Shown here piece by piece: positions 24,558-32,873 of a stretch of DNA of 37,979 bases; position 1 is the stretch's first letter; each line of letters opens with the position of its first letter. The notes under the pieces are model-generated. The model saw only the letters and a program-made list of their open reading frames with translations. It had not been told where the DNA came from and searched no databases. The DNA comes from Myxococcaceae bacterium (GTDB lineage: Bacteria > Myxococcota > Myxococcia > Myxococcales > Myxococcaceae): contig JADCJJ010000185.1 in the NCBI GenBank assembly GCA_020247085.1, positions 1-37,979 on the forward strand, written 5' to 3'. Position numbers and translations under genes: made by a program.

Positions 24558-25949
24558 TCAGAAGTGCAGCACGACGCCCTCGGCGCCGGGGGTGAGGGCG
24601 AGGGGCGCCGCCGAGAGGTCGAGCACGACGCGCGTCGAGGGGCCTTGCCTGCCCACGCGCACGCGGGTGACGCGGCCGGGCGCGCGCAGAGACAGCGTGG
24701 CGCTCGCGCGCGGGGCGTGGCCGCCGAGGTCGAAGACGAGCCGGGGTGGAGCCTCGAGCGTGAAGACACGATCGACGTACGCGCCAGCGCGCAGCACCGG
24801 CCGGACCTCGAGTTCGTTGCCATCACCACGCCACTGCAGCGCGCGCGCCGCGCCCGACGGCAGCGTGACGCGCCCAAGGGGGGCGGACGCCACCGACGGA
24901 CCCGGGCGCCGCGGGGCGAGGGGCGGCGCGGCAGTCAGCGTCGTCGTCGGGCGGGGTTCCGCGAGCGCAGGCGGCGGGGGCGCCTCCACGTTCGCTCCCG
25001 GAGCTGCCGCGACGCCGGCAGCCGACGAGGCGGCGGCCCCGGTCGCGGGCCCTGACAGCGCGGGCGGAGCGGCAGCCAGTGCCCGCTCGGCGGCAGGCGT
25101 CAGTGGGGCCAGCTCGTCGTCACGGACGCCCTGCGCATCGCGAACCGCCTCGGCACGGCGGACCGGCTCGGCGCCTGGGAGGGCGTCGACGTCGCGAACC
25201 GCCCCGACGTCCTGCGCGGCCTCGACACCGCGCACGCCCTGCGCGTCGTGAACCGCATGGATGTCGTGCGTGGAGTCGATGGCGCGCGCCCCCACGAGGT
25301 CAAGAGGGGCCTCGGCGTCACCCTGATTCGGCCGCGGTGCCGGTGGCTCGATGGAGGCCGATGGGCTCGCGCCCCCCTCGGTGGCGTGCAGCGCCCGGAG
25401 CGGGCCAGCCCCTGCGAAGACCAGCACCGCGGCGGCGAGCGTCGTGATGAGCCCGGCCGCGACGAGCGCCAGCCGCCTCAGCGGGCGCACCGGCGGCGGC
25501 GCTCCCCTGAGCGGCGTGCCCGTATCGAGCGTTTCGACGAGGTAGTCCACCAGGGCCTTCGAGCGGGGGTGCAGGGCCTCGGTGAAGCGAATGCCGACCC
25601 CCTGGTACCGGCCCTCGTGCGCCGACTGCTGGTGACGGCACCACCGCACCTCGCCCTGCATGAAGGGCAGCACACGGCCCTGCGCCTCGAGGGCGATGGC
25701 GACGCGGGCGCCGCGCTCGAGCGGCTGAGGCATGCGCACGAAGAGTCCGTCTCGGGAGAGGTTGGCGGCGAGCGTGCGGAAGGCGCGCGGCGCGCCGTCC
25801 ACCGTCGTCACCCGCACCGGGTGCCTGAAGCGCACGCGGCGGGGCCTGACGGTGGCGTCGTCGTCTCCGCCGCCCATCGGCAGCGGCGCGGTGACCGCGA
25901 GGGCCCGTGGGGTGCTGGGAGACGTCTCGAGGGGCATGATCGGCTCCAC
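24558..25949 (-). CDS. PilZ domain - TM - low-complexity linker - AMIN domain fusion
   Basis: N-terminal PilZ motifs RFRHPVR (RxxxR) and NLSRDG ((D/N)xSxxG); TM LRRLALVAAGLITTLAAAVLVFAGAG; C-terminal AMIN pattern PPRLVFDLGG...RVTRVRVGRQGPSTRVVLDLS...VVLHF. Confidence 0.8.
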   Translation of the reverse strand: MEPIMPLETSPSTPRALAVTAPLPMGGGDDDATVRPRRVRFRHPVRVTTVDGAPRAFRTLAANLSRDGLFVRMPQPLERGARVAIALEAQGRVLPFMQGEVRWCRHQQSAHEGRYQGVGIRFTEALHPRSKALVDYLVETLDTGTPLRGAPPPVRPLRRLALVAAGLITTLAAAVLVFAGAGPLRALHATEGGASPSASIEPPAPRPNQGDAEAPLDLVGARAIDSTHDIHAVHDAQGVRGVEAAQDVGAVRDVDALPGAEPVRRAEAVRDAQGVRDDELAPLTPAAERALAAAPPALSGPATGAAASSAAGVAAAPGANVEAPPPPALAEPRPTTTLTAAPPLAPRRPGPSVASAPLGRVTLPSGAARALQWRGDGNELEVRPVLRAGAYVDRVFTLEAPPRLVFDLGGHAPRASATLSLRAPGRVTRVRVGRQGPSTRVVLDLSAAPLALTPGAEGVVLHF

Positions 25950-26105
25950 GCGCGCGAGTGTGCGGCAGCCCGGGCCCGCGGCAAGTTTCTGCGCCCACGC
26001 GGGACGCCCGCTTCAGGGCCCACCCCACCGGCCGCCCCTCAACGCGCTCCACGCCCGCGCGGATGCCCATGGGTTCACCTCGGTGTTTTCTCGCGGTACG
26101 ACACC

Positions 26106-26810
26106 GTGGTGCGTTTCTTCCACGTTCGCCGTGACGCGCTCGCTGCGGCGGCGTTCGACGCCCTGCGCGGCGCGCTCCTCGACTCGGCGTTCGTCTCGGC
26201 CAGCACCCTCAACGGGCCCTTCCGCGCGAGCCGTGGCTTCGGCGTGACCTTCACCGAGGCCGGGCGGCGCCAGCTCACCGACCGCTTCCCAGCGCTCGCG
26301 CCGTGGCTCGACCAGGCGCTCGGCCTTCCGGCGATGCAGGCCCTGACGCCATGGTGGCGGCGCACGCCGGGGCCGCTCCCCAACGCCTGGTACCTCAACC
26401 TGCTGGTGGTGGGCCCGGGGGCCGAGGTGGCGCGTCACGTCGACGGCACCCTGATGAAGCCCGCCGGCGTCACCGGGCACCCACCGGCCTGCGTCTCGGT
26501 GCTCTACCTCGAGGTGCCGGCGGCCCGCGGCGGCGAGCTGGCGCTGTGGAGCGGCGCGCTGCCGGTAGGACTCCTCGCGCCCCGCCCCGGGCAGGTGGTG
26601 CATTTCCGCGGTGACCTCGCGCACGCGGTGCGACCCTTCGAAGGGGCCCCGGGCGCGCGGCGCGCCTCGCTGGTGCTCGAGCAGTACCACTTCGCGCCAG
26701 AGCCCCTGGCCCGCCTGCCCGACTTCAAGCTCGACACGAAGGCCGGCTTCGGCGCCTTCCTCGACGATCACGCCCGGCGGCCCCCGGCGGCCTTCGACGT
26801 CGAGCCCTGA
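26106..26810 (+). CDS. Putative 2OG-Fe(II) oxygenase-like protein
   Basis: GTG start; YLNLLVVGPGAEVARHVDGTLM (HxD), GQVVHFRGDLAHAVRPF (distal His), RRASLVLEQYHF (Arg). Confidence 0.65.
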   Translation: MVRFFHVRRDALAAAAFDALRGALLDSAFVSASTLNGPFRASRGFGVTFTEAGRRQLTDRFPALAPWLDQALGLPAMQALTPWWRRTPGPLPNAWYLNLLVVGPGAEVARHVDGTLMKPAGVTGHPPACVSVLYLEVPAARGGELALWSGALPVGLLAPRPGQVVHFRGDLAHAVRPFEGAPGARRASLVLEQYHFAPEPLARLPDFKLDTKAGFGAFLDDHARRPPAAFDVEP

Positions 26811-26868
26811 GCGGCAAGCCGGCAGTCCTCCGGTGAAAGCGGGCGAGGGCGTGGTTACGCTCCGCCCC

Positions 26869-27696
26869 ATGCGCTTCAAGGGAACCGAGTCGTACCTCAC
26901 CGGCGAGAGCCTGCGCTCCGCCGTCGACTGTGCCGTCGCGCTCCAGCGTCCGCTGCTGGTGAAGGGCGAGCCCGGTACCGGCAAGACGCTGCTCGCCGAG
27001 GCCATCGCGGCGGCGACCGGCCTGCAGCTCCTCACCTGGAACGTCAAGTCGACGACGAAGGCGCAAGAGGGCCTCTACGTCTACGACGCCGTGCAGCGCC
27101 TGCACGACAGCCGCTTCAACGACAAGGACGTGCGGGACATTCGCCAGTACCTGCGCAAGGGGCCACTGGGCGAGGCCTTCGCCGCGCCCGAGCGCCGGGT
27201 GCTGCTCATCGACGAGATCGACAAGGCCGACCTCGAGTTCCCGAACGACCTGCTGCACGAGCTCGATCGCATGCGCTTCCGCGTCATCGAGACCGACGAA
27301 GAGATCGTCGCCCGGCACCGCCCCATCGTCGTCATCACCTCGAACAACGAGAAGGACCTGCCCGACGCCTTCCTGCGGCGGTGCGTCTTCCACTTCATCG
27401 AGTTCCCCGAACGCGACCTGATGCAGCGCATCGTCGACGTACACCACCCGGAGCTCGGCGACGCCCTGGTGGACCAGGCGCTGGCCGTCTTCTACGAGCT
27501 GCGGGCCTTCGCCCGGCTGCGCAAGCGACCCTCGACGAGCGAGCTCATCGACTGGCTGGCGGCGCTGAAGGCGGCCGGCGTCACGAGCGTGAAGCTCGAC
27601 GCCCAGCTGCCCTTCATCGGCGCGCTGCTCAAGCGCGAGCAGGACCTGCTGGCCTTCGCCGACCAGTTCGGTGGGCGCGCTCCGAAGCGGGCCTGA
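26869..27696 (+). CDS. MoxR-type AAA+ ATPase
   Basis: ATG at 26869; Walker A GEPGTGKTLLAEA, Walker B VLLIDEIDKAD, sensor TSNNEKDLPDAFLRRC. Confidence 0.95.
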   Translation: MRFKGTESYLTGESLRSAVDCAVALQRPLLVKGEPGTGKTLLAEAIAAATGLQLLTWNVKSTTKAQEGLYVYDAVQRLHDSRFNDKDVRDIRQYLRKGPLGEAFAAPERRVLLIDEIDKADLEFPNDLLHELDRMRFRVIETDEEIVARHRPIVVITSNNEKDLPDAFLRRCVFHFIEFPERDLMQRIVDVHHPELGDALVDQALAVFYELRAFARLRKRPSTSELIDWLAALKAAGVTSVKLDAQLPFIGALLKREQDLLAFADQFGGRAPKRA

Positions 27697-27700
27697 CGCC

Positions 27701-28873
27701 GTGTTCGTCCCCTTTCTCTACGAGCTGCGGAGCCGGAAGGTGCCGGTGGGCGCCACCGAGGCCGTCGCGTTGGCGCGGGCGCTGGTGGCGGGGCTGCACG
27801 ACAGCTCGCTCGAGGGCTTCTACTTCGTCGCCCGGGCGCTGCTGGTGCATGACGAGAAGCACCTCGACGCCTTCGACCAGGCCTTCGCCAAGCACTTTCA
27901 CGGCGTCGAGGCGAAGGCCCTCGAACTGACCGAGCAGTTGCTCGAGTGGGTGCGCGAGGCGAAGCAGCCCGACCGCCGGCTGACACCCGAGGAGAAGGCC
28001 CTGCTCGAGCAGCTCGACCTCGCGGCGCTCGAGCAGCTGTTCCAGGAGCGCCTGCGGACGCAGAAGGAGCGACACGACCGCGGCAACACCTGGGTCGGCA
28101 CCGCGGGCACTTCGCCGTTCGGCAACACCGGGAAGACCGACCGCCCCGGCTTCCGCGTCGGAGACGCTGCCGGCCAGAAGAGCGCGGTGCGCGTGGCCGG
28201 CGAGCGCGCCTTCAAGGAGTACCGAGACGACCTGGTGCTCGACGTGCGGCAGATGCAGGTGGCGCTGCGGAAGCTGCGCGCCTTCGCCCGCGAGGGCGCC
28301 GAGGACGAGCTCGACCTCGACGGCACGGTACGTGAGACGGCGCGGAACCTCGGCGACCTCGAGGTCGTGCTGCGGCCCCCCCGCACCTCGAACACCCGTG
28401 TCATCCTGCTGATGGACGTGGGCGGCTCGATGGACCCGTTCACCGCGCTGGTGTCGCGGCTGTTCACCGCGGCGAAGAAGGCGACGCACTTCAAGGAGCT
28501 GCGGACCTACTACTTCCACAACTGCGTCTACGGGCGCGTCTACCAGCACGCGAGCTTCCGGGATCCGGTGCCCCTCACGCAGCTCTTCGCGGAGACCGAC
28601 CGGCGCTACAAGCTGATCGTCGTCGGCGACGCCCTCATGGCGCCGTGGGAGCTGATGAGCGTCTCGGGCTGGAGCGACGACGAGGGGCTCGAGGGCATGG
28701 TGCACCTGATGCGGCTGCGGGAGCACTACCCGGCGAGCTGCTGGCTCAACCCCGAGCCCCCCAGCGCCTGGTGGCAGAGCACCATCGACGTCATCCGCAA
28801 GGTGTTTCCGATGTACCCTCTGACGCTCGAGGGCCTCGGAGACGCGGTCGGCCAGCTGACGAAGACGAGGTGA
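27701..28873 (+). CDS. VWA domain protein, CoxE-like
   Basis: GTG start 5 nt after the MoxR stop; VPFLYELRSRKVPVGATEAVALARAL; MIDAS variant LLMDVGGSMDPF; YYFHNCVYGRVY. Confidence 0.92.
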   Translation: MFVPFLYELRSRKVPVGATEAVALARALVAGLHDSSLEGFYFVARALLVHDEKHLDAFDQAFAKHFHGVEAKALELTEQLLEWVREAKQPDRRLTPEEKALLEQLDLAALEQLFQERLRTQKERHDRGNTWVGTAGTSPFGNTGKTDRPGFRVGDAAGQKSAVRVAGERAFKEYRDDLVLDVRQMQVALRKLRAFAREGAEDELDLDGTVRETARNLGDLEVVLRPPRTSNTRVILLMDVGGSMDPFTALVSRLFTAAKKATHFKELRTYYFHNCVYGRVYQHASFRDPVPLTQLFAETDRRYKLIVVGDALMAPWELMSVSGWSDDEGLEGMVHLMRLREHYPASCWLNPEPPSAWWQSTIDVIRKVFPMYPLTLEGLGDAVGQLTKTR

Positions 28874-28876
28874 GCC

Positions 28877-29392
28877 GTGGCGAAGGACACGAAGGATCTG
28901 CGCGACTGGCTGCCGACGATCGCCTTCTTCGGCGGGCTCGAAGACGCCACACTGACGCGCGTCATCGGCATGCTGGGCGAGCACCACTTCGAGCGGGGCG
29001 CCGAGGTCTGCAAGCAGGGCGACGCCGGGCGCGCGATGTTCATCGTTCGCGCCGGCGAGGTGCTCGTCTGCCGCGACGACGAGGCCGGGGTGCGGCGCAA
29101 GTTCGTGCGCATGGGCGCGGGGGAGTTCTTCGGCGAGATGACGCTCATCGACGTGCAGAAGCGGAGCGCCACCGTCATCGTCGAGAAGCCGTCGGTGCTC
29201 TACTCGCTCGGCAACCGAGACCTCTACCGGCTCTTCCAGGAGGACACGCAGGGCTACGTGATGATCCTCCAGAACCTCTGCCGTGAGCTGTCGCGCCGGC
29301 TGCGCGTCACCAACCAGCGCCTCCAGGCAATGGCGAGCGAGGTGGACGAAGAGGACGACCGCACGCTCATCCGCCCGGCCATCAAGCGCTGA
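28877..29392 (+). CDS. Stand-alone cyclic-nucleotide-binding domain protein
   Basis: GTG start 4 nt after the VWA stop; FFGGLEDATLTRVIGMLGEHHFERGAEVCKQGDAGRAMFIVRAGEV...GEFFGEMTLIDVQKRSATVIVEKPSVL; no HTH. Confidence 0.9.
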   Translation: MAKDTKDLRDWLPTIAFFGGLEDATLTRVIGMLGEHHFERGAEVCKQGDAGRAMFIVRAGEVLVCRDDEAGVRRKFVRMGAGEFFGEMTLIDVQKRSATVIVEKPSVLYSLGNRDLYRLFQEDTQGYVMILQNLCRELSRRLRVTNQRLQAMASEVDEEDDRTLIRPAIKR

Positions 29393-29882
29393 GCCGCACC
29401 CGCACCTTCACCTGGGGTTTGATCTTCAGCGTGCCCAGCATCGCGGAGTACGGCGTGATGCCGAAGTCGCGCTGGTCGAGCGTGAACTCGGCGACGCGGG
29501 CCAAGCCTTCGACGCGCACGGCGGCGCCCACCCGCCGGGCCACGCCGTGGAGCGTGAGCGTGCCCTCGACGCTCGCCTCAGAGAGCGCCGTGCTCTCGAA
29601 GCGGGCCTCGGGGTAGCGGCGGGCCTCGAGCACGTCGGCGACGACGTTCTTCTCGATCTCGGCCTTCATTGGCGAGAGCAGCACACCCGACGAGGCGCCG
29701 TCCTTCATGGCGGTGACGACCTTCAGCGAGCTGGTGTCGAAGGTGGCGACGAGGCGCTGGGGTTCGACGTCGACGGCGCAGCGGGTGACCTCGAGCTCGA
29801 GGTCGTGCGCGACGGCCGAGAGGAGGCCCTCCTTGAAGGTATAGACCCGCACCTGCACCTTCGACGCCTCAAGCCGTGCCAT
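29382..29882 (-). CDS. YceI-like protein without signal peptide
   Basis: MARLEASKVQVRVYTFKEGLLSAVAHDLELEV...FDTSSLKV...VLEARRYPEARFEST...GTLTLHGVAR...FTLDQRDFGITPYSAMLGTLKIKPQVKVRVRL. Confidence 0.88.
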   Translation of the reverse strand: MARLEASKVQVRVYTFKEGLLSAVAHDLELEVTRCAVDVEPQRLVATFDTSSLKVVTAMKDGASSGVLLSPMKAEIEKNVVADVLEARRYPEARFESTALSEASVEGTLTLHGVARRVGAAVRVEGLARVAEFTLDQRDFGITPYSAMLGTLKIKPQVKVRVRLSA

Positions 29883-32718
29883 GGGTCGCTCCGGGGCAGC
29901 TCGGTGGGGGGGCCGCCTGAGGGCGCGGTGAGGTACGTCGCCGGCGCGTGACGACGAACAGCGCAAAGGCGCTGAGGCCGAGGCCTCCCGGGCCGAGCCG
30001 ACAGCCGCCCCCCTGCAGGGCGAGCACCGGGGACGGCGGCGGACTGTTTCCACCCTCACCACCGCCAGCGCCGCCACCGCCACCGCCAGCGCCGCCACCG
30101 CCACCGCCAGCGCCGCCACCGCCAGTGCCACCACCGCCAGCGCCGCCACCGCCAGTGCCACCACCGCCCGTGCCGCCACCGCCCGCGCCACCGTCGACTT
30201 CGACGCCGGACCCGCCATCGAGGACAAACCCGAGCAGGCGCCGGAAGAGCTCGTTGCGCGTGGCGCGGTTGGTGACGCCCTCGAGCGGAAAGCCGAAGAG
30301 GGCCGAACGGCCGGCGATGCCCGAGGCCGCCGGCGCCCCCGTGGCGTACTCGGCGAGCAGCTGGCCAGAGCCAACGGGCGCGACGACGTCGAGCGAGCCG
30401 CCGTCCGGACCGCCGACGTCGTACGAGCCGAAGGTGCCGTCGTCCATCGACCACCCGAGGCCCTGGAGCGGGCCACGGCCGGTGAGATCGCGCGCCCCCT
30501 GCCCGCTCCCGACCGTGGCGCTACCGACGTCAGTGAAGAGGCCCAGCTCCGCGGCGGCCTCACCGCTGAACAGCACCCGCGTGCCCGCGGCGAGGGCGGC
30601 GCGGAGCGCGCTCTGGGTGGCCGCGCTGGGCGCCGCGCCCCTGGCCTTTCCTCGCCCGGCGATGAAGCTCACCGCGGCGAAGTCCGCGGGTGTGACGAGC
30701 CCGGCCTCGACGGCCTCGTCGCTCGCGCTGTCGAAGCCGAGGCCGGCGAGGTCGATTGCCTCTCCATGCACGCGCACCGTGGAGCCGTCGTTGATGCGCC
30801 GCGGGGCCACGCGCACGACGGTGCCGAGGGCGAAGCGCGACGGAAACGCCTCGAGCTGAGCTTGTGCGGCCTCGAAGCGGTCGAACCCGTTGACGACCAG
30901 CACCCGCGGAGCCCCTGCCTTCGCGCCCACCACCACCGAGGGGAAGCTCTCTCCGCCGCCGTTGACGCCGGTGACGCGGAAGTACCTGGCGCGCCCGGCC
31001 GGCAGCGCCACCTCGAGCGAGGTGGTCGTGGTCTCGAGGCCGTCGTCCCAGGCGAGGCCGTCGTCGCTCGAGTACACGCGGTACCGGATCGCCGCCTGCC
31101 CCCCGACCCCCTGGGCGTCGACCCCCGAGGGGCTCCAGCGCACCTCGGCGAGGCCGTTCGCTAGCGCGCGCGCGCGCACGGCCGTCGGCGCCTCGGGCGG
31201 GAGCTGCGGCGTCACCGAGTCGACGCTGGCGAAGTAGCGGATGATACCCTGGGTGATGGCCCGTGCGGCGACGTAGCGGAACTGGGGCTCCTTGAGCCGG
31301 TTGGCGTCGAGCGCGTTGTCGTGGAAGGCCACCTCGAGCAGCACCGCCGGCATCTCGGCGTTGTTCGTCGGGTTGAGCTCGCCGAAGTTGGCGCACAGCG
31401 TGCCGTAGTCGCGCCAGGAGGGCTCGTTCCAGCCGGCATCCTGCCGCAGGTCGTTCACCAACTCGGCGCGCATGAGGTCACCCAGCTCGCGGCTGCCAGA
31501 GACGCCCGCGTACTCGGTGGCCAGCGAGCAGTTGCCCACCGAGTCGGTCCCGTAGACGTAGGTCTGGGTGCCGCGCGCCATCGAGTTTGCGGCGTTGGTG
31601 TGCCACGCGACGTAGACGGCGGGCTCTCCGGCCTCGCGGACCCACGCGGCAAAGCGGGGCCGTGCGCTGATGTCGTTGTTCCGGTCGCTCGAGGCGCCGT
31701 TGCCGAGCGGCGCGTAGACCGACTCTGGCGCCCCCGCCCACTGTGCCTGGTACCGGGCAGACTCCTCAAAGCGCGGGCGGCCGCTGCTCCCGCCGCCGCG
31801 GTCGACCAGCCCGACCCCGCCGCCGAACTTCACCGCGTCGAGCGACAGGTTGGCGACGGGCCGCGCGTCGGTGGAGTCGTTGCGCGCCACCACCTGCGCA
31901 GCGCCGCCCGCGCGGAAGAAGAAGGTGCCCAGCGTCACCCAGGTGCCGCCATGGCGCTGCTGGTTGACCCGAAACGACGTCTCACCGCCGGCGTGGCGCA
32001 CGAGGAAGTGCGCGTCGGTCACCCGCGCCGAGAAGGCCGTGTACGCGAGCGAGACCTCGTAGAAGCCATCGCGTGGGAGCTGCGCGGTCCACGTCGCGCT
32101 CGCCGTCGCGGTCGGGGCCGCCGTCATCAACCGGTTCGTCCCCGCCGAGAAGGGGTTGACGTCGCCGGCCATGGGCAGCGTGGGGCGGCCCCACCCCATG
32201 AGCGACGAGGTGGAGAAGGCCGTGGCGGGGCCGGTCTCAGCGTAGCCAGCCTCTCCGTCATCGACGAGCACGAGGTCGGGGTTGGGGTCGCTCTCGCGCA
32301 CGGTGAAGACGCGGGCGCCGGCGTTCTGCAGCATCGGCACCAGCCACTGGTGCACCGTCTCGGTCGAGACGAGATCTTCGACGACCTCGTTGGTGTTGCC
32401 GCGCTGGGTGCGCCAGAAGAACGTGCCGGCGATGTTGGTCCAGGTGAAGCCGTGGCCAGCCGAGAGGTAGACGCTCTTGCCCGACAGCGCGCCGGCGTTG
32501 GTGAAGCGCCCCGCCGGAACGCCCGAGATGTAGGGCACGCGGTTCGTCTCGCGGCGCACGATGGGCGGCTCGTCGGCTCGCCAGGGCACCTCGAAGGGCT
32601 TCGACGGTACGGGCGCCACCGTCGGCAGGCCCTCGCCCTCGAGGCCGCAGTCGGTCCAGAAGCCGTCGGCCGAGAGGGCCGGCTGGGCGAGCACGAGGGT
32701 GAGCGCGAGCGGCAGCAT
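29869..32718 (-). CDS. N-acetylmuramoyl-L-alanine amidase (Amidase_3) with golvesin-like insert, FN3 and MYXO-CTERM-like tail
   Basis: Signal peptide from ATG 32718 (MLPLALTLVLAQPALSADG); Zn motifs SAGHG, AWHTNAAN, VLLEVAFHDN; FN3-like PTAVRARALANGLAEVRWSPSG; Gly-rich spacer then GGGCRLGPGGLGLSAFALFVVTRRRR. Confidence 0.85.
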   Translation of the reverse strand: MLPLALTLVLAQPALSADGFWTDCGLEGEGLPTVAPVPSKPFEVPWRADEPPIVRRETNRVPYISGVPAGRFTNAGALSGKSVYLSAGHGFTWTNIAGTFFWRTQRGNTNEVVEDLVSTETVHQWLVPMLQNAGARVFTVRESDPNPDLVLVDDGEAGYAETGPATAFSTSSLMGWGRPTLPMAGDVNPFSAGTNRLMTAAPTATASATWTAQLPRDGFYEVSLAYTAFSARVTDAHFLVRHAGGETSFRVNQQRHGGTWVTLGTFFFRAGGAAQVVARNDSTDARPVANLSLDAVKFGGGVGLVDRGGGSSGRPRFEESARYQAQWAGAPESVYAPLGNGASSDRNNDISARPRFAAWVREAGEPAVYVAWHTNAANSMARGTQTYVYGTDSVGNCSLATEYAGVSGSRELGDLMRAELVNDLRQDAGWNEPSWRDYGTLCANFGELNPTNNAEMPAVLLEVAFHDNALDANRLKEPQFRYVAARAITQGIIRYFASVDSVTPQLPPEAPTAVRARALANGLAEVRWSPSGVDAQGVGGQAAIRYRVYSSDDGLAWDDGLETTTTSLEVALPAGRARYFRVTGVNGGGESFPSVVVGAKAGAPRVLVVNGFDRFEAAQAQLEAFPSRFALGTVVRVAPRRINDGSTVRVHGEAIDLAGLGFDSASDEAVEAGLVTPADFAAVSFIAGRGKARGAAPSAATQSALRAALAAGTRVLFSGEAAAELGLFTDVGSATVGSGQGARDLTGRGPLQGLGWSMDDGTFGSYDVGGPDGGSLDVVAPVGSGQLLAEYATGAPAASGIAGRSALFGFPLEGVTNRATRNELFRRLLGFVLDGGSGVEVDGGAGGGGTGGGGTGGGGAGGGGTGGGGAGGGGGGAGGGGGGAGGGEGGNSPPPSPVLALQGGGCRLGPGGLGLSAFALFVVTRRRRTSPRPQAAPPPSCPGATHGTA
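30057..30192 (-). repeat. GGTGGC-type tandem repeat encoding a Gly-rich spacer (GGGGTGGGGAGGGG...)
   Basis: Plus strand shows iterated accgccagcgccgccaccgcc / accgccagtgccacc; in frame with the amidase on the minus strand. Confidence 0.9.
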
Positions 32719-32873
32719 CGCGGGGCGTCTAGCGCACCAACGAAACAAAAGACCACGCCCCGGCCCGGCTGCCGCCGTCGGGGCGTCATGCACGAGGCGG
32801 CCCCACTGCGGGGCCTGGCCGAGGCGACCCCGGGCGGAGGGACTTTGGGGGCCCCCCGCCCGAGCGCCTCGAC

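Follow-up and report, generated by a model that had tools for sequence, protein, structure and literature searches.

The window, meaning the whole stretch of 37,979 nucleotides analysed here, carries on its reverse strand a gene for a protein that joins a PilZ domain to an AMIN domain through a transmembrane (TM) helix and a long linker (Table 1). The codon-position GC content of its open reading frame (83/60/88%) is a coding signature. An in-frame ATG at 25877 (Met25) provides an alternative start and would give a 439-aa form. Upstream of the gene, GAAACTTGCC is located 40 nt before the GTG at 25949 and is kept in more than 10 orthologs at an equal distance from their own GTG, and GAAACTTGC is common to relatives about 40 nt 5' of their GTG starts, the window copy likewise standing 40 nt from 25949. 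The conserved spacing between this element and the GTG favours the start at 25949. From the comparison of ortholog upstream regions, the element is predicted to be promoter-like, and the spacing of GAAACTTGCC to the GTG would fit a leaderless transcript. A regulon defined by GAAACTTGCC was considered and set aside, as the genome contains only three exact copies. The family alignment and the AlphaFold model were built on the 439-aa form starting at Met25; adding 24 converts that numbering to the 463-aa numbering used below unless stated otherwise.

Table 1. Features of the PilZ–AMIN gene and its surroundings in the window
Feature	Position	Strand	Basis or remark
PilZ–TM–linker–AMIN protein	24558..25949	(-)	463 aa, GTG start at 25949
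Promoter-like element (predicted)	25957..25989	(-)	Upstream of the GTG start; ortholog upstream regions side by side
PilZ domain, residues 37–137, predicted cytoplasmic	25539..25841	(-)	Pfam PF07238
Motif 1, R35-x-x-R38	25836..25847	(-)	Invariant in 22/22; one residue shorter than canonical RxxxR
Motif 2, N63-L-S65-R-D-G68, (D/N)xSxxG c-di-GMP motif	25746..25763	(-)	Invariant S65 and G68 in the family alignment
Single TM helix, residues 156–179	25413..25484	(-)	AlphaFold helix; hydropathy; K/R-rich N-side
Periplasmic linker, residues 180–357, disordered	24879..25412	(-)	Low pLDDT (AlphaFold)
AMIN domain, residues 358–462, predicted periplasmic	24564..24878	(-)	Pfam PF11741; structure model
2OG-oxygenase-like, MoxR ATPase, VWA (CoxE-like) and cNMP-binding cluster	26010–29392	(+)	Adjoins the gene in most orthologs
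Amidase_3 protein	29869–32793	(-)	Fused Golvesin_C domain, Gly-rich tail

Domain architecture and predicted topology

Only two domains score above cut-off in the window protein: PilZ (PF07238; 39.6 bits against a cut-off of 22.5, E = 7.2e-10, residues 37–137) and AMIN (PF11741; 28.0 bits against a cut-off of 20.5, E = 2.3e-6, residues 394–447). The PilZ region was also matched by TIGR02266 with 45 bits, which is under the cut-off of that model, and neither a Secretin nor an Amidase_3 domain was found above cut-off with Pfam. The AlphaFold model, computed from the 22-member family alignment that includes the window protein, shows, in this order, a PilZ barrel, a TM helix (132–155), a disordered stretch reaching to about residue 333, and a beta-sandwich (334–438; all in 439-aa numbering). 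The sandwich, which corresponds to AMIN, reaches a pLDDT of about 95 in the full model and of 93.6 when the domain is modelled alone.

Fold comparison with Foldseek assigned both ends of the protein. The top PDB matches of the PilZ model were PilZ structures (Alg44, BcsA, PA0012, YcgR and MapZ), many of them c-di-GMP-bound, with Alg44 (4rt0/4rt1) as the best match and a probability of 1.00 for Alg44, YcgR and the PilZ domain of BcsA. The AMIN model matched AmiC (4bin) and PilQ (4aqz) with a probability of 1.00 and a further PilQ structure (4av2) with 0.98, the next match falling to 0.20; the E-values against AmiC and PilQ were modest (0.03–0.14). Searching the PDB with the single window sequence gave no real match, and the profile search returned AMIN proteins at marginal E-values of 0.02–0.6, a result later backed by the fold comparison.

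The TM segment has a hydropathy maximum of 2.52 and is flanked by four K/R residues before and one after. Nearly all relatives have such a hydrophobic segment with more K/R on its N-side than after it; the hydropathy is weaker in a few paralogs, and one divergent relative (L062) has a reversed charge pattern. Owing to the K/R excess ahead of the segment, PilZ is predicted to be cytoplasmic and AMIN periplasmic. A bitopic inner-membrane protein with one TM helix, PilZ inside and AMIN outside is thus supported by the sequence, by the predicted structure and by conservation in several families. The order of parts proposed in an earlier, sequence-only reading of this DNA is borne out by the two Pfam scores, the single TM helix, the disordered linker and the Foldseek matches, and its placement of the two ends on opposite sides of the membrane agrees with the N-in/C-out topology predicted from the K/R flanks, the model and conservation.

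Distribution and gene neighbourhood among Myxococcota

Whole-genome profile searches covered Myxococcota. The 59 genomes searched in the window's own family (f1) include matches, full-length or split, from the window's genus and from several further genera. A match in one genome of another family (f7) was all that 145 genomes of the order added. All nine genomes searched in a different class (family f11) have a match, and families f14, f24 and f25 each provide a single example with both domains. The f1 alignment consists of the window protein and 21 relatives, with a PilZ profile match in 21 of the 22 members and an AMIN match in all of them. The f11 alignment consists of eight full-length proteins from seven genomes, the protein being split or cut at contig ends in the remaining two, and both domains are matched in 8/8. 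The PilZ–AMIN architecture, thought unusual when the sequence was read alone, is recurrent in at least six myxobacterial families and is not a one-off. A pattern-based scan of genome contigs with the f1 alignment gave hits in Myxococcales only, in MAG records labelled Archangium, Myxococcaceae or similar. In many well-sampled genera of f1 the searches gave no PilZ–AMIN gene, and the MoxR–VWA locus is present there without it; motility and division therefore do not generally require this architecture. Whether the f1 and f11 fusions go back to one early origin was also considered; the PilZ tree, in which each group forms its own clade, does not settle this.

A second PilZ–AMIN paralog at a separate location (L054, L055, L056, L058, L059 and L060), with a shorter linker of 65–83 aa, is found in genera g16 and g18, and one f11 genome (G148) has two copies (L145 and L150). 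The window's own genome encodes a further AMIN protein (L064; contig C145, 4852–6861, reverse strand), in which AMIN lies near the N-terminus, ahead of a long charged stretch of coiled-coil-like character and of additional C-terminal sequence; its gene adjoins an LptD-like gene. A PilZ–DnaK fusion found in genome G088 (L153; 977–3103, reverse strand) is of a type already described for M. xanthus (PMC8316039, PMC10313047).

In the window, MCP–CheA–CheB–CheR genes and ilvE border the PilZ–AMIN gene within about 1–9 kb. The location beside a Frz motility locus, pointed out in the sequence-only reading, is real in the window but is not conserved. The CheR/ilvE side recurs in one other genome only (G050, where CheR and ilvE were seen on its short contig), and a conserved Frz partnership was accordingly rejected. 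A role dedicated to regulating the neighbouring Frz-like chemosensory locus or type IV pili would be in keeping with this proximity, with the side shared by G050 and with the AMIN fold common to PilQ. We nevertheless consider such a role very improbable, as apart from G050 no sampled ortholog locus has Frz/ilvE neighbours, and the conserved neighbours at f1 loci are instead the 2OG-oxygenase-like, MoxR, VWA and cNMP genes, often with YceI. The opposite side at f1 loci holds TauE, ATP-grasp and kinase-PEGA genes, and the neighbours of the f11 fusions differ again (VKOR-DsbA, TPR). A gene cluster that would name the process was thus not obtained, the f1 and f11 neighbours differing and suggesting no type IV pilus or division operon. 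Nor is an amidase or secretin gene conserved near PilZ–AMIN at the f1 and f11 loci. Both Amidase_3 proteins of the window are without AMIN in Pfam, as had been noticed before; the one fused to Golvesin_C ends in a Cys–hydrophobic–Arg pattern that resembles a MYXO-CTERM sorting signal.

PilZ ligand motifs and the linker

Both PilZ ligand motifs had been taken to be present, in the form of RHPVR and NLSRDG. The second is intact, but RHPVR is misplaced. In the window copy RHPVR and RVRFR both fit the RxxxR pattern, and their common R42 is not conserved; in most relatives this residue, the first arginine of RHPVR, is replaced by K, T, E, G or A. A conserved RxxxR ahead of strand 1 was not found in the window's family, where all 22 members have R35-x-x-R38 as the true motif 1. 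R35 and R38 (R11 and R14 in 439-aa numbering), S65 and G68 are invariant across the 22-member alignment. The f7 homolog, from another family of the same order, has RxxR as well. RxxxR is kept in the f11 fusions of the other class and in the f14, f24 and f25 fusions (L200–L202), and other PilZ domains of the same genomes mostly have RxxxR at the place of motif 1.

Given RxxR in place of RxxxR, binding of c-di-GMP by the window's family may have been altered or lost and cannot be assumed. It is plausible because RxxxR is present in the relatives sampled from other classes, and the complete conservation of R35, R38, S65 and G68 argues for a retained role. If the domain did not bind c-di-GMP, it would serve protein docking only, and the protein would be a structural connector between peptidoglycan and inner membrane. 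This alternative accommodates the RxxR of all 22 members and the f7 homolog, and non-binding PilZ domains have precedent; we find it rather doubtful, since the invariance of both arginines and of the S and G of (D/N)xSxxG would be unexpected had the ligand been lost, and the RxxxR retained in other classes also speaks against it.

The three parts of the protein differ in conservation, with a mean identity to the window protein of 57% for PilZ, 38% for AMIN and about 24% for the linker. The PilZ domain is under strong constraint, and these values fit an interacting PilZ domain combined with a tether-like linker. The length of the linker varies from 65 to 271 aa in f1 and from 59 to 117 aa in f11 (59–271 overall), and the f11 proteins have a second linker between PilZ and the TM helix. 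A linker that is disordered, poorly conserved and so variable in length is better suited to a tether than to a relay of conformational change. In such a relay, c-di-GMP on PilZ would alter the periplasmic AMIN domain, which would control PilQ, an amidase or some other protein of the wall in a LapD-like manner. The topology and the domain types are compatible with this inside-out scheme, and Alg44, the best match of the PilZ model, is a precedent of PilZ–TM–periplasmic design. A further precedent is LapD, an inner-membrane inside-out c-di-GMP receptor (PMC3032553 and PMC3032545). Conformational transmission through a disordered linker of 59–271 residues is unlikely, however, and the second linker in f11 and the lack of a conserved amidase or secretin gene nearby add to the case against; we therefore regard the relay as unlikely. 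Of the inside-out signalling originally suggested, the N-in/C-out topology is supported and the relay is not favoured. For a direct connection to PilQ or an amidase, suggested at the same time, the shared AMIN fold is the only evidence.

A candidate wall tether and its place among known systems

The reading that we prefer, and to which we would give an even chance, is that of a wall-tethered PilZ protein, in which AMIN concentrates a c-di-GMP-responsive PilZ domain at the septum or the poles. AMIN would bind peptidoglycan, probably, by fold homology, in the septal or polar form recognised by the AMIN domains of PilQ and AmiC. The flexible linker would be the tether between the membrane and the wall-held AMIN domain, so that PilZ would be concentrated at division sites or poles. 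There it may act as a localised docking or effector module, putatively responsive to c-di-GMP, for an inner-membrane or cytoplasmic partner. Both domains, the single TM helix with its orientation, the disordered variable linker and the constraint on PilZ are computed elements of this scheme. The tether is supported by the finding that both domains pass their cut-offs and recur, with folds matching c-di-GMP-bound PilZ structures and the AMIN domains of AmiC and PilQ. Against it stand the RxxR of the window's family, the lack of a conserved genetic partner pointing to a process, and the many genera of the family in which the architecture was not found. M. xanthus PilQ is considered to bind peptidoglycan of the septum and poles through its AMIN domains, which position the pilus machine there (PMC10653833), and the AMIN or LysM domains gained by FliO in several phyla were proposed as envelope anchors (PMC12403147); together with the variable linker, these cases favour a peptidoglycan-anchored PilZ protein.

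Among known systems, Alg44, the alginate PilZ receptor of P. aeruginosa, has in common with the window protein a cytoplasmic PilZ domain, one TM helix and a periplasmic part. In Alg44 this part is a membrane-fusion-protein-like domain within the alginate machine, whereas in the window protein it is AMIN; the neighbouring genes are unrelated, with no alginate operon, and no polysaccharide synthase was seen among them. The polar landmarks FimV and HubP combine a periplasmic peptidoglycan-binding domain, one TM helix and a cytoplasmic signalling or docking part, but with LysM and a TPR/acidic cytoplasmic region rather than AMIN and PilZ, an analogy of logic only. LapD contains degenerate GGDEF/EAL domains, a HAMP domain and a periplasmic PAS-type domain that form a structured relay, in contrast to PilZ and a disordered linker here. 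PilQ and AmiC share the AMIN fold but are a secretin and an amidase; the window protein is neither of these and has an inner-membrane anchor. FliO proteins with AMIN or LysM (PMC12403147) resemble it in having a single TM helix, a periplasmic AMIN domain and a cytoplasmic beta domain, and differ in their N-terminal AMIN, FliO core and flagellar/T3SS role, as opposed to a C-terminal AMIN and a cytoplasmic PilZ. Within the same order, the M. xanthus PilZ proteins PlpA, PixA and PixB act on motility; the accessible part of the source (PMC8316039) gives their companions as a receiver or acetyltransferase domain, or none, and mentions no AMIN there.

The search of the openly accessible literature gave no account of a PilZ–AMIN fusion, and the pairing appears to be new. 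The signalling principle is not, because Alg44 already combines PilZ with a periplasmic part and LapD is an inside-out c-di-GMP receptor; AMIN anchors are likewise known. We tentatively suggest that these proteins could form a myxobacterial class of peptidoglycan-anchored receptors, in which AMIN would read septal or polar wall chemistry as a landmark and PilZ would read c-di-GMP, in the window's family through the compact RxxR; a single protein would then combine information on position with the level of the second messenger. If true, position at the wall would be tied directly to c-di-GMP signalling within one polypeptide, and the protein would be a candidate landmark for bacteria thought to be without FimV/HubP. 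The family would also provide a natural test of whether RxxR spacing supports ligand binding by PilZ, its homologs in other classes carrying the canonical RxxxR.
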